Positions 23,468 through 34,876 of a stretch of DNA of 64,000 bases are shown here, one piece after another. Position 1 is the stretch's first letter; every line of letters begins with the position of its first letter. The notes beneath the pieces were generated by a model that searched no databases, was not told where the DNA came from, and was given only the letters and a program-made list of their open reading frames with translations. This DNA comes from Companilactobacillus farciminis KCTC 3681 = DSM 20184 (GTDB lineage: Bacteria; Bacillota; Bacilli; Lactobacillales; Lactobacillaceae): assembly GCF_002706745.1 (NCBI RefSeq), contig NZ_CP017702.1, positions 2,480,001-2,544,000 on the forward strand, read 5' to 3'. The position numbers and the translations under genes were made by a program.

Positions 23468-23640
23468 TCTAGTCGGGAGCAAAATCTCTGTGATGGCTCA
23501 GCCGCCATATTATTCTTAGCAACTTGTTGCTTAGAATAAGACCAATCTTGAAGACTTTGCCCGTACTTGGTCTTAGCAAAGGCTCCAAGTTGTGTCGGCA
23601 GCGTTCCAGCCAATCACAGAGATTTTGTGGACGACGGCAT
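23468..23640 (+). repeat. structured repeat unit R1 (complete, forward)
   Basis: This 164-nt core (23472-23635) is a copy of a family also found at 25.8, 26.0, 32.6/34.3, 34.5, 34.7 and 34.85 kb. Closing stem GTCG/CGAC; internal loop GGAG/TGGA; a perfect 15-bp stem (23480-23494 with 23613-23627) continued by GGCT/AGCC with one bulged A; internal loop CA/GTTCC; a 6-bp stem 23501-23506 with 23597-23602 (one mismatch); then two hairpins, the first TTCTTAGCAAC/GTTGCTTAGAA, the second CTTTGC/GCAAAG with CTTG/CAAG. No ORF lies in it. It sits between the APC permease terminator and the guaB terminator. I do not recognise a known family. Confidence 0.8.
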
Positions 23641-23644
23641 CCTT

Positions 23645-23682
23645 AGTAAAAAAGCAGGCCTTAAACGGTCTGCTTTTTTACT
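23645..23682 (-). terminator. terminator after guaB
   Basis: AGTAAAAAAGCAG and CTGCTTTTTTACT form a perfect 13-bp stem just past the guaB stop. Confidence 0.75.
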
Positions 23683-23684
23683 GC

Positions 23685-25163
23685 TTATTTAACTGAATAA
23701 TTAGGAGCTTCTTTAGTAATTGTAACGTCATGTGGATGTGATTCTCTCAATCCAGCGTTAGAAATTTGAATAAATTGAGCATCTTGTAATTCCTTCAAGT
23801 TGTGAGCACCAACGTAACCCATACCTGAACGCAATCCACCAAGTAGTTGATAAATTACATCGCCAACAGCACCTTTGGCAGCGACACGACCTTCGATACC
23901 TTCGGGAACTAACTTGTTAGCTTCGTTAACGCCACTTTGGAAGTAACGATCAGATGAACCATGAGACATGGCAGCCAAACTACCCATTCCACGATAAGTC
24001 TTGAAACGACGACCTTGATAAATTTCAAATTCACCAGGAGCTTCATCAGTACCGGCTAACATTGAACCAAGCATAACGGCATTACCACCACCAGCTAAAG
24101 CTTTAACAATATCACCGGAGTACTTGATACCACCATCAGCAATAATTGTCTTGCCGTATTCGTGAGCTACACTAGCAGCGTCATAAACAGCAGTTAATTG
24201 AGGAACACCGACACCGGCAACGATTCTAGTTGTACAAATTGAACCAGGTCCGATACCAACTTTAACGACATCAACCCCAGCATCGTAAAGGGCTCTAGTA
24301 CCTTCAGCAGTAGCGACGTTACCAGCAATCAAAGTAGCTTCTGGGAATTTAGCTCTGATTTCACCGATTTTTCTAAGGACACCGGCTGAATGACCGTGAG
24401 CTGTATCGATAATAATTGCATCGGCACCAGCACTTAAAAGAGCTTCGGCACGTTCAAAAGTATCGCTAGTTACACCAACAGCCGCAGCGACTAGTAAACG
24501 ACCATACTTATCTTTAGCAGCGTTAGGAAATTCTTTAACTTTTTCGATATCTTTGATAGTTACTAAACCACCTAAACGACCATTTTTATCGATCAAAGGA
24601 AGTTTTTCAATACGATGTTCTTGAAGAATTTGTTCTGCTTCTTTTAGAGAAGTACCAACTGGTGCAGTAATCAATTCTTCACTAGTCATAACTGTTCCGA
24701 TTTTTACAGAATAGTCAGAAATGAAACGCAAATCTCTGTTAGTAATAATACCAACTAATTTTAGATCATTAGTGTTGTTAACGATTGGCACACCACTGAT
24801 ACGGTAAGTACTCATTAATTTTTCTGCTTGGGCAACTTCATCATCCGCTGTTAAGTAAATTGGATCGATGATGACACCATTTTCTGAGCGCTTAACCTTT
24901 GAAACCTCGTCAGCTTGTTGTTCAATACTCATATTCTTGTGAATAACACCTAATCCACCTTGACGTGCCATTGCGATGGCCATTGGTGCTTCGGTAACTG
25001 TATCCATACTTGCACTCAAAATTGGAGTGTTTAACTTAATATTCTTAGCTAATTGAACTGATAAATCTACTTCGTTTGGTAAAACGTGACTCTCCGCTGG
25101 AATTAGTAAGACGTCATCAAACGTGAATCCCTTTTTATCAAATTTTGTATCCCATGCCGACAT
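23685..25163 (-). CDS. guaB: inosine-5'-monophosphate dehydrogenase
   Basis: This 492-residue enzyme converts IMP to XMP with NAD+, the committed step to guanine nucleotides. It has the TIM barrel split by two CBS domains (about residues 95-210), the catalytic Cys in [17 protein letters not shown] (near residue 308), and the flap RYFQSG. Length is typical. A site AGGAGG precedes the ATG; no purine riboswitch was seen in the short upstream region. Confidence 0.96.
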
Positions 25164-25216
25164 GATTTTCCTCCTAAGTATTTGTTTTTACCTATTAGTA
25201 GATAAAATTTATAAAC

Positions 25217-25245
25217 ATGGTAGCCGATTTTTTTATGTTAGTCAA
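25217..25245 (-). promoter_or_regulatory. probable guaB promoter
   Basis: On the - strand TTGACT and TACCAT are 17 bp apart, ending about 54 nt upstream of the guaB start. Confidence 0.5.
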
Positions 25246-25261
25246 TCAAAGTTTGTGAAAG

Positions 25262-25293
25262 AAAAAAAGACTTATCGTCATAACGACAAGCCT
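25262..25293 (-). terminator. terminator after the 121-residue membrane protein gene
   Basis: GGCTTGTCG pairs with CGATAAGTC around TTATGA and is followed by TTTTTTTC on the - strand. Confidence 0.7.
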
Positions 25294-25294
25294 T

Positions 25295-33570: not shown

Positions 33571-34247
33571 TCCCCACGCTGGATTTCTTCGAATTTTTTT
33601 TCAAAAGCCTCTATAGCGTTACGTTTATTTAATTCAGCCTTTAATTGTCTATTTTCTAGTTTTAATTTATCAACTTCTGTTAAACTCTTTTCTTTGACGT
33701 AACCTCTGCGTCCTCGCTTATCAGCGAGGGCAGAGTATCCTTGTTTCTTCACGATTAATACCCAATTGCGTACTTGTTGATAGGAAACTTGAAAATGTTC
33801 CGAAGCTTCAGAGTATGAATGTTTTTGAAGAGTTACGTATTCAACTACTTCAATTCTTTCTTCAAGAGTGGTTTTCTTCGACATTGTAACGACCTTCTTT
33901 CTAACAGGCGTAGCCTTGATTAGATTCTTGTCATTATTATACTGTATTATCCAATATCTCAATTGTTTAGAAGAACGTAGTTTAAACTTTATAGATACTT
34001 CTTTAAGAGTCCCTTCGCCATTAAGATAAGCACTGACAGCTTGAATCTTAGTCTCATAACTATATTTCTTGGGAACTTGAGGGATTAATCCCTTTTCACC
34101 GTATGCTTGAAATAAGGTAAGCCAACCTCTAGCAGTAATAGGATTAACTCCGATTGATCTGCAATATTCTATAAATATTATTTCTGACTTTACTTTCAAA
34201 TAGTCTTTAATTATTTTTATCTTGAACTCTGATTCGTACTTCTTCAT
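33567..34247 (-). CDS. IS3-family transposase OrfA (DNA-binding)
   Basis: The 226-residue protein has two helix-turn-helix segments (about residues 5-50 and 110-160) and a C-terminal helical region rich in Lys and Glu (likely leucine-zipper type). It is longer than many OrfA proteins. The ATG at 34247 follows AGAAGGGA. A run of eight A near its end, in the context GAAAAAAAATTC, is a likely -1 slippery site. Confidence 0.9.
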   Translation of the reverse strand: MKKYESEFKIKIIKDYLKVKSEIIFIEYCRSIGVNPITARGWLTLFQAYGEKGLIPQVPKKYSYETKIQAVSAYLNGEGTLKEVSIKFKLRSSKQLRYWIIQYNNDKNLIKATPVRKKVVTMSKKTTLEERIEVVEYVTLQKHSYSEASEHFQVSYQQVRNWVLIVKKQGYSALADKRGRRGYVKEKSLTEVDKLKLENRQLKAELNKRNAIEAFEKKFEEIQRGE

Positions 34248-34317
34248 AAAAAAATCCCTTCTGATTTTCATCTGAAATTATTCCATTTCATATGTCAACC
34301 ACAAAGGGAGTATAGCA

Positions 34318-34454
34318 GAACGTAGTGGGCACGATTTTGAGCTTTTGCATAAACCAAGTGCGCAAAATCTCAAAACTCGACCTTATTCTAAGCAACAAGT
34401 TGCTAAGAATAAATTCACTACTGAGCCAATTTTCTTTGCTATTCCGGACTAGAT
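34318..34454 (-). repeat. structured repeat unit R4, 5' part
   Basis: On the - strand this holds the closing-stem half GTCC, the long stem half, the 6-bp stem GTAGTG/CACTAC, a 14-bp hairpin (TTATTCTTAGCAAC region with one U-U mismatch) and the second hairpin TTTTGAG/CTCAAAA with TTTTGC/GCAAAA. Its 3' part is at 32586-32621. Confidence 0.8.
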
Positions 34455-34499
34455 AGTGGTTCTATTTTTTTATCACAGAAGTAACAAATAAAAGACGTT

Positions 34500-34563
34500 A
34501 TCTAGTCGGTAGTGACAGCTTTATGGATGCTCAGTACTGAAATTTCACTTAGCGATTTATCGG
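34500..34563 (+). repeat. structured repeat unit R5, 5' fragment
   Basis: It closely matches the first 60 nt of R2 (on its own strand): GTCG, the left arm of the long stem, GTACTG and the first hairpin's left arm, then breaks off after CGATTTATCG. It lies head to head with R4. Confidence 0.75.
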
Positions 34564-34664
34564 CTCTTGTCATAGTTTGGTTATTTAAAAATGCAGAAGA
34601 GTTCTATATTCACTATATATGATTTCATTTTTTTGAATTAAACGAGATAAATAATAAAACTAGG
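34564..34664. other. intergenic stretch between repeat fragments
   Basis: AT-rich, with no ORF or other feature I can support. Confidence 0.3.
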
Positions 34665-34837
34665 ATCCAGTCTGGAGCACAAGTTCTGTGATGGCTCAGC
34701 CGCCAAATTTTTGTTAGTGCTTTAGCACTTACAAAAAGGCCTAGTTTTGAGATTTTGCGTCTTTGGGGCCATGCAAAAGCTCAAAATAGTGCCGGCAGCG
34801 TTCCAGCCAATCACAGGACTTGTGTGGAAGACGGCAT
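34665..34837 (+). repeat. structured repeat unit R6 (complete, forward)
   Basis: The 163-nt core (34670-34832) has closing stem GTCT/AGAC, loop GGAG/TGGA, a 15-bp stem CACAAGTTCTGTGAT with its complement (one G-U), GGCT/AGCC, loop CA/GTTCC, the 6-bp stem GCCGCC/GGCAGC, a 13-bp hairpin TTTTTGTTAGTGC and a second hairpin. The stem sequences differ from R3 and R4 but the pairing is preserved. Confidence 0.8.
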
Positions 34838-34846
34838 TTTACATTA

Positions 34847-34876
34847 ACCAAATTTTCTTTGCTATGGAGGACGGAA
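34847..34876 (+). repeat. structured repeat unit R7, 3' fragment
   Basis: About 30 nt identical to the 3' end of R3/R4 (CCAAATTTTCTTTGCTATGG and GGACGGAAT), without the rest of a unit. Confidence 0.7.

Follow-up and report, generated by a model that had tools for sequence, protein, structure and literature searches.

The units of about 165 nt that recur in the window, i.e. the whole analysed stretch of 64,000 nt from Companilactobacillus farciminis, are probably (at roughly 0.7) the two folded ends of a small, non-coding, MITE-like transposable element, which would insert mostly in host terminators and be read as folded DNA by an enzyme acting in trans. The repeats were assigned to halves of a mobile element because of their terminal inverted repeats, the 7-bp duplications around them, and related genomes in which the site is empty or simpler. 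They are mobile DNA whose structure is at the same time under constraint. The first-pass annotation of the window had proposed a structured RNA, of which the constraint on the fold was retained, whereas RNA as the primary nature was not supported, since the units come in outward-facing pairs, each one half of a mobile element. The opposite case it had named, copies that prove to be recent DNA duplicates lacking an RNA signal, does not fit a mixed outcome of this kind, in which mobile DNA has a constrained fold.

All seven copies or parts announced in that annotation (R1 to R7) were located at 23472-34877, with complete units spanning 156-164 nt from closing stem to closing stem. On checking the sequence, its closing stems (GTCG/CGAC, GTCC/GGAC, GTCT/AGAC) and six-pair inner stems proved correct, and the joining loops were as described, GGAG or GGAA facing TGGA (the loop being larger in R2) and CA facing GTTCC. 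It had overlooked that R2 and R3, and likewise R4 and R5, form inverted pairs that stand back to back with their 5′ ends face to face, and that R4 is split by an insertion sequence of IS3 type. R1, R3 and R6 are much more stably folded than their shuffled sequences (z -6.2 to -7.7).

The Y-shaped unit R1 (23472-23635, + strand; CM 174.7 bits; fold z -7.0) is a half element with no left partner, flanked by convergent genes at 21970-23367 (+) and 23685-25163 (-). Upstream of it, a long hairpin with a T run after it (23369..23427, +; seen as inverted repeat I14 and in the sequence) occupies the place of the central terminator-like hairpin of complete elements. R1 is missing at the orthologous site in two relatives, where genome G012 has solely a plain host terminator and G047 solely a hairpin resembling the central one of the element.

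R2 (25814-25969, -; CM 138.7 bits) and R3 (26033-26195, +; CM 189.1 bits; fold z against shuffled sequence -6.2 and -7.3 for the + and - strands, respectively) are the left and right Y-shaped units of a nearly complete element at 25783..26227, which consists of the left inverted repeat GGTTCTTTTGAACTTGGG, R2, a 63-nt spacer, R3, and a right inverted repeat ending AAGAAAGAACT. Its 7-bp target duplication was read directly as CAAATAT (25776..25782) and CAAATGT (26228..26234), the left copy being the same as the right one at 6/7 positions, and the insertion with identical flanking 7-mers is also present in G012 (L189).

The left Y-shaped unit R4 is divided into a main part (34318-34449, -; CM/HMM matches and sequence) and a 3′ tail (32585-32621, -; 100% complementary to R3 positions 26165-26201) by the insertion sequence at 32622..34317 (-), which lies in the GTTCC loop with a target duplication GAA, as read at the junctions. 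Within it are an rve integrase ORF (32677-33570) and an HTH ORF (33567-34271), and the Pfam matches PF00665, PF01527 and PF13518 point to the IS3 type. The uninterrupted R4/R5 pair is present in G047 (L198). Beyond the R4-R5 spacer (34450..34504; ends TAGATAGTGG and GACGTTATCTA), R5 (34505-34561, +; HMM match 34502-34562) is the start of a right unit, broken in the loop of hairpin 1. In this hairpin loop lies a nested half element (34562..34849, +), which starts GGCTCTTGTC, carries the Y-shaped unit R6 (34670-34832, +; CM 159.7 bits; fold z -7.7), and has a rearranged right flank; a nested insertion of like kind in the same hairpin loop was found in G047 (L205, L207, L132). R7 (34848-34877, +) is a 3′ fragment of a unit of R3 type (repeat D8, 100% to 26171-26200).

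Complete copies are of ca. 500-530 bp, and comprise in order a terminal inverted repeat of ca. 22 bp, an inverse Y-unit, an AT-rich spacer often with a central terminator-like hairpin, a forward Y-unit, and the inverted repeat again, so that the two Y-units face outward. Elements with matching ends included L210:3004-3518, L208:3152-3665, L106:12819-13331, L231, L241, L230 and L246, among others; the best 22-bp inverted repeat was GGTTCTTTCTTAAGTTAGGTTA, and the repeats were perfect in L210 and imperfect in L231, L208, L106 and others. No long gene lies in the element, which is taken to be non-coding. In the non-redundant fetched loci, 84 adjacent hits lay <700 nt apart, and of these 73 were oriented (-,+), nine (+,+), two (-,-), and none (+,-). 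When one whole element was folded as DNA together with its host arms, a z of -15.7 was obtained. Nested insertions occur in the hairpin loop of a unit. Since most copies look old and shortened, recent movement is seen indirectly only.

For 12 elements with recognisable ends, the flanking 7-mers had a mean identity of 0.762 against 0.372 when permuted (0/5000 as high), and the values at other lengths were 0.389 for 6 (777/5000), 0.427 for 8 (209/5000), and 0.435 for 9 (18/5000). The 7-mer duplication was perfect in four of the 12, and poor (3/7 matches) in another four, namely L231, L230, L142 and L201, the ends of L142 being doubtful. Judged by eye, nine of the 12 sit inside host terminator hairpins, and terminator-like flanks are missing in L189, L234 and L142. 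Pairing between the two 40-nt flanks of the 12 elements amounts to -15.95 kcal/mol vs -9.59 (sd 1.04) when permuted (0/1000); in another 63 pairs, whose ends are approximate and from which those containing N or sharing a locus with any of the 12 were excluded, the values were -9.45 vs -8.24 kcal/mol (12/1000). The R2/R3 copy lies upstream of an ORF start and its flanks have no T run after them, although they pair at -18.4 kcal/mol (L001, approximate ends). A simple terminator scan of L210 2900-3650 with a loop limit of 8 returned none.

Sites that hold a whole or half element in one genome have plain terminators in relatives, as seen in the comparisons of L208 with L170, L054 with L106, L103 with L187, L197 with window positions 17289-17313, and R1 with G012. 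The inverted repeats of the element can lengthen the host terminator stem. Insertion in a terminator would be nearly harmless, because the lengthened host stem, or the hairpin of the element itself, could still bring about termination.

An alternative, which we regard as quite improbable, is that these are terminator modules beneficial to the host, providing strong bidirectional termination or 3′-end protection and spread by recombination instead of transposition. In 464 kb of this genome, the 13 unit-bearing intergenic regions were six convergent, six codirectional and one divergent, when all intergenic regions numbered 31, 133 and 49, respectively (Fisher p 0.005 for convergent enrichment), and this enrichment, which was counted for the transposable element too, speaks for such modules, as do the terminator-like hairpins within the elements and the exchange of a plain terminator, a hairpin-only remnant, and a hairpin with a unit at one site in three genomes. 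However, the 7-bp duplications, inverted repeats and nested insertions indicate a transposition-like entry, the decay of units by deletion across stems is unlike maintenance, and an elaborate Y-fold with near-fixed mismatches is unnecessary for termination. 

The selection on fold rather than on sequence claimed in the first-pass annotation was borne out by strong covariation in the wider alignment that it had called for. In an alignment of 11 units, a two-sided change was kept at 37 of the 62 predicted pairs, and with 115 distinct units from many species such changes were found at 59 of the 62. In the latter alignment, 96% of the cells pair, vs 66% when shuffled, and the covariation score was 0.687 vs 0.179 for shuffled and 0.057-0.080 for slid partners. 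The stems of the Y-fold have been rewritten many times, with pairing retained. Unpaired spots are near-fixed over four genera (T.T in hairpin 1, A.G in hairpin 2, and CA/GTTCC), as is GGAG/TGGA within the genus of the window solely. It is very hard to credit that the paired changes are unselected and due to template switching or conversion between palindrome arms during replication; changed pairs are nearly all Watson-Crick with few G-U intermediates, as arm-to-arm copying gives, but the same process would close the internal mismatches, and divergent copies are still paired at the above 96%.

It is unlikely, if somewhat less so than either of these, that the units represent an independently transcribed, widely dispersed structured ncRNA with incidental mobility, where the Y-fold would work as RNA, e.g. 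in protein binding or 3′-end shielding. The covariation at 59/62 pairs and the internal loops near-fixed over four genera would suit such an RNA, and units are often near 3′ ends of genes. Moreover, the strand running outward has more G-U than A-C (169 vs 69 among 6587 cells), a bias that points to this strand, which leads to the element tip, as the one under constraint; it was counted for the reading as a DNA element and, as a role as RNA would produce it too, also against that reading. On the other hand, G-U is rare, with 169 of the 6324 standard pairs, and A-C is present, unlike in the control of 16 tRNAs (15 G-U and 0 A-C in 350 pairs, from a tRNA finder which itself prefers well-paired stems). 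A transcript coming in from either neighbour gene would read the first unit on the strand opposite to the constrained one, and with the back-to-back mirror pairs such a gene could yield the constrained sense only after passing through one unit and the spacer. Promoter-like sites were not more frequent than in shuffles in the promoter scan. Searching Rfam at the gathering threshold and at E up to 1 returned no relevant family, solely a tRNA elsewhere and two weak hits beyond the units, put down to chance, in agreement with the first-pass annotation, which knew of no named family to fit. Action of the Y-fold as single-stranded DNA is favoured over action as RNA.

Under the preferred reading as a mobile DNA element, the constrained strand of each Y-unit runs out to its 3′ end at the element tip, and from this orientation it is proposed that a trans-supplied enzyme would recognise the Y-unit in the form of a folded single strand or an extruded cruciform. 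The near-fixed unpaired spots (T.T, A.G, CA/GTTCC, and in the genus GGAG/TGGA) may serve as contact points, and the pairing between these would be maintained by compensatory change. Only tentatively do we extend this to the idea that both the recognition of ends and the choice of target are governed by structure, with ends recognised by folded single-strand shape instead of sequence, Y-shaped subterminal structures of near-fixed mismatches and freely rewritten stems in at least seven genera of one family, and terminator hairpins as landing sites.

A transposase carrying the ends of the element was not found, and in G000 and G047 no pair of inverted repeats, with three mismatches allowed, was spaced to enclose a gene. 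The REP/RAYT system was rejected, since the Y1 (RAYT-type) transposase PF01797 is absent from this genome, as well as from G003, G008, G015 and G047; PF01797 is present in 18 of the 36 genomes of the genus. Copies of the ISL3 family in the genus have one end beginning GGCTCTTTG and the other GGTTCT; both of those viewed (L223, L227) are located at T tracts, and an 8-bp repeat was read at the former. ISL3 was rejected because the eight bases GGYTCTTT alone are in common with the element and the duplication is 8 instead of 7. In G254, the sole gene seen between a unit and the right end, a 338-aa ORF in L306, was rejected as a sign of an autonomous copy, as it looks like an insertion sequence within the element tail, judged from the junction alone.

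In common with MITEs, the element has terminal inverted repeats, a fixed-length target duplication, and short, many dispersed copies. The EFAR elements of Enterococci were reportedly treated by De Gregorio et al. in 2009. Bacterial MITEs (RUP, NEMIS, Nezha and others), as listed in PMC3733652, are likewise short, non-coding and intergenic, with terminal inverted repeats, many copies, and an RNA or DNA fold; the present element departs from MITEs in general in its two separate subterminal Y-units, its fold conserved across genera, its near-fixed mismatches, and its entry into terminator hairpins. With EFAR, known here by its mention in PMC3733652 only, the comparison is limited to the sampled Lactobacillales outside one family, which had no match to model R2 and among which Enterococcus may be lacking. 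Efa-1 of E. faecalis, of 163 bp and with a pair of adjacent stem-loops according to PMC2267715, could, at a guess, be identical to EFAR. REP/BIME are similar in the inverted pairs of palindromic units, the tetranucleotide beside the stem foot (here CTAG, in R6 CCAG), and the mismatched stems. In contrast, REPs are palindromes of 20-40 bp (PMC3733652) with a GTAG tag, compared with CTAG-bearing (CCAG in R6) units of 156-164 nt here, and the present element has in addition terminal inverted repeats and 7-bp duplications in a genome devoid of the Y1 transposase. The bcr1 repeats of the Bacillus cereus group (147-167 bp, intergenic, MITE-like, with a predicted structure) belong to another genus, and the excerpts available from PMC3446304 and PMC2267715 mention neither a mirror-pair architecture nor terminator targeting for them. 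No description of the element in lactobacilli was met in the searched literature.

With 59/62 pairs covarying, the fold conservation is unusually deep for a mobile repeat, and the family cautions against taking strong covariation of a repeat as sufficient evidence of a functional RNA. The preference for terminator hairpins would render insertion almost neutral, and the family offers a tractable system in lactic acid bacteria for asking whether a transposase reads the shape of single-stranded DNA. The R3 region had no match in two collections, of plasmids and phages. Hits were found in 34 of the 36 Companilactobacillus genomes and, with model R2, in seven of the 80 genera sampled in the order, all of one family. 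This genome is estimated to contain ca. 90 units, with 14 hits of the model across 400 kb sampled at even spacing and 44 matches to one type, and in the above 464 kb the units alone (19 of ca. 165 nt) cover about 5% of the intergenic DNA, which totals 56.6 kb when gaps of 60 nt or more are counted.

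The seven Y-shaped units or fragments of units in the window, R1-R7, lie between positions 23472 and 34877, and sequence and repeat comparison bore out all positions given for them in the first-pass annotation. Complete units measure 156-164 nt, both 4-bp halves of the closing stem included. They fold into a Y whose long closing stem is broken by two internal loops, one with GGAG or GGAA facing TGGA (enlarged in R2) and one with CA facing GTTCC. Beyond it come an inner stem of six pairs and two hairpins, and in the alignments both hairpins have a conserved mismatch (T.T in the first, A.G in the second). 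Fold energies were 6 to 8 standard deviations under shuffles on the strand named in that annotation, and the complement strand of R3 fell below shuffles to a similar degree.

The compensatory stem changes claimed from the sequence alone were upheld in larger alignments. Pairing was kept through two-sided changes at 37 of 62 pairs in an 11-unit alignment, from which a covariance model was built. Among 115 distinct units (122 gathered, from 63 chosen sources), two-sided changes were found at 59 of the 62 pairs, with 96.0% of the cells pairing versus 65.6% in shuffles, and a covariation score of 0.687 (shuffled 0.179, slid 0.057-0.080). A further set that also covered three other genera (84 units, 83 distinct) gave 59/62 pairs, 95.8% and 0.729. 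The counts of both sets lean towards the model because the alignments were fitted to it, and the effect size is well beyond this bias. In the core alignment (44 sequences used, 82 distinct cores available) the TCAG and GTTCC loops, like the mismatches in the hairpins, were almost invariant while the stems vary, GTTCC deviating in two sequences; the outer GGAG/TGGA loop lies outside the core and is absent from some units of other genera (locus L276).

The units are typically arranged as outward-facing pairs. Among 84 neighbouring matches less than 700 nt apart, counted in non-redundant fetched loci, 73 were minus-then-plus, 9 plus-plus, 2 minus-minus and none plus-then-minus. In genome G022, the spacer was 318-325 nt in seven of ten aligned pairs, and most of the ten carried a central hairpin between an A run and a T run. 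Twelve elements with recognisable ends were obtained, eleven by a scan of 76 pairs allowing at most 3 mismatches per end and the twelfth (L201) by an exact-motif scan; eight were 501-528 bp long, and the others 277, 299, 354 and 560 bp. The best terminal repeats, at L210, were GGTTCTTTCTTAAGTTAGGTTA and its exact complement at the other end. The window copy at 25783-26227 is an element of the same kind with a shortened spacer, flanked by CAAATAT and CAAATGT (6/7 identical). In genome G278 (C4:201769-202455), three tandem minus-strand units with a 168-nt period precede one plus unit, an array that in sequence suggests tandem amplification of single units. In genome G008, two adjoining direct-orientation copies (L110, 5145-5839; 353 nt at 87% identity), together with identical match scores of four copies at separate sites, point to recent expansion.

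The 7-mers flanking the 12 elements were 76% identical, versus 37% with permuted flanks (0/5000 as high), with 7, 6 and 3 matches in four elements each. Identity was 0.39 at flank length 6 (777/5000), 0.43 at length 8 (209/5000) and 0.44 at length 9 (18/5000). The 40-nt flanks also paired with each other (mean -15.95 vs -9.59 kcal/mol permuted, 0/1000), and, judged by eye, nine elements (L208, L106, L210, L246, L231, L241, L230, L054, L201) lie between the two arms of an intrinsic terminator with a T run after it; by the same inspection, such arms were not seen at L189, L234 and L142. In 63 further pairs, with element ends set at 33 nt outside the unit, flank pairing was weaker (-9.45 vs -8.24, 12/1000).

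Related genomes provided sites with and without the element. G000 (L170) has the intact terminator AACGCTACTC-GATTAG-GAGTAACGTTTTTTTT, and G047 (L208) a 514-bp element in that loop; a similar contrast was found between L054 and G003 (Companilactobacillus formosensis), with the insertion nearer the right arm of the hairpin. Half elements faced plain terminators in L103 (G003) versus L187, and in L197 (G047) versus window 17289-17313. The R1 site holds a hairpin and R1 in the window genome, only a hairpin resembling the central one of the element in G047, a plain terminator in C. futsaii (G012), and in C. formosensis some 0.75 kb of different DNA in place of the unit (L108, 14698-15485). Many site differences were deletions across stems, not clean gains (L027, L040, L026). 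Units themselves serve as targets, with elements in the hairpin loop of other units at L205, L207 and L132, and R6 likewise in R5, and an IS3-type insertion sequence (window 32622-34317) splits R4 precisely at its GTTCC loop, with GAA as the target duplication. In this genus, two insertion sequences of the ISL3 family (L223, L227) are located at T tracts, and L223 shows an 8-bp repeat, so that these two may share the terminator preference; other ISL3-family copies viewed had no clear T-tract placement.

Whether the fold acts as RNA or DNA was weighed by strand. G-U pairs exceeded A-C mismatches in both sets (169 and 69 among 6587 cells; 127 and 56 among 4813), which suggests that the constrained strand runs outward to the element tip, the test being weak as copies are related and the alignment model-fitted; 16 tRNAs of the same loci gave 15 and 0 among 350 pairs, the tRNA finder preferring well-paired stems. 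A transcript from either flanking gene reads the first unit it meets on the opposite strand, which lowers the likelihood that the sense fold works in a 3' UTR; the remaining options are a transcript running outward or one strand of DNA, e.g. the strand joined during transposition. Folded whole as DNA, the L210 element with its host arms reached a z of -15.7, and promoter and terminator scans of L210 were no higher than in shuffles. In window 23300-35000, promoter-like sites were no more than in shuffles, and terminator-like sites numbered 14 versus a shuffle mean of 6.9.

Searching the 2.55-Mb genome with R3 as a DNA query gave at least 44 matches, with scoring limited to 40 of the 101 first-look candidates. 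In 20 evenly spaced 20-kb stretches (400 kb), the covariance model picked up 14 units, corresponding to about 90 per genome, and in the denser window 5. Under stricter filters, which lose weak matches, 34 of 36 genus genomes matched (none in G007 and G050), 20 with more than 40 and 12 with at least 47 matches, a wider search matched 8/246 genomes in 4/64 genera, and a broader core model (R2) 25/395 genomes in 7/80 genera, every one within the window's own family. With the same strict filters, covariance model R1 gave zero matches among 24 genomes of other genera, and the R3 region none in the plasmid and phage collections searched. Units fetched from other genera (G254, G131, G138, G245) share the fold. 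In eight aligned G254 loci they occur singly and end differently (GTNAGTGT), and L274 has one clear 9-bp repeat, AGCAAAAAG; the mobilising enzyme or its spacing may thus vary by lineage. At L306 of G254 (376-1392), a 338-aa ORF between unit and right inverted repeat is probably an insertion sequence within the element tail. The element was not found described in the literature searched, nor in Rfam, and could be called undescribed on that basis only; the closest kind described so far may be the EFAR elements of Enterococci.

Unit-bearing intergenic regions (n = 13) in 464 kb, i.e. the 20 stretches plus the window, which was picked for its units, were convergent in 6, codirectional in 6 and divergent in 1 case, against 31, 133 and 49 of all intergenic regions (Fisher p 0.005 for convergent), or 5, 5 and 0 with the window left out; these counts are approximate, as gene calling relied on a simple ORF rule. 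One unit at L174 overlaps an 80-codon ORF, which is probably not a real gene. The only divergent case in the window, R2/R3, adjoins a 121-codon ORF without a match in a Pfam search. Elsewhere in the window, a 1000-codon ORF (11098-14100) with short Asp-Pro-rich repeats close to its end (13726-13932) possibly encodes a surface protein, and two adjacent 238-codon ORFs (55590-57174), 67% identical over 300 nt, probably represent a tandem gene duplication.
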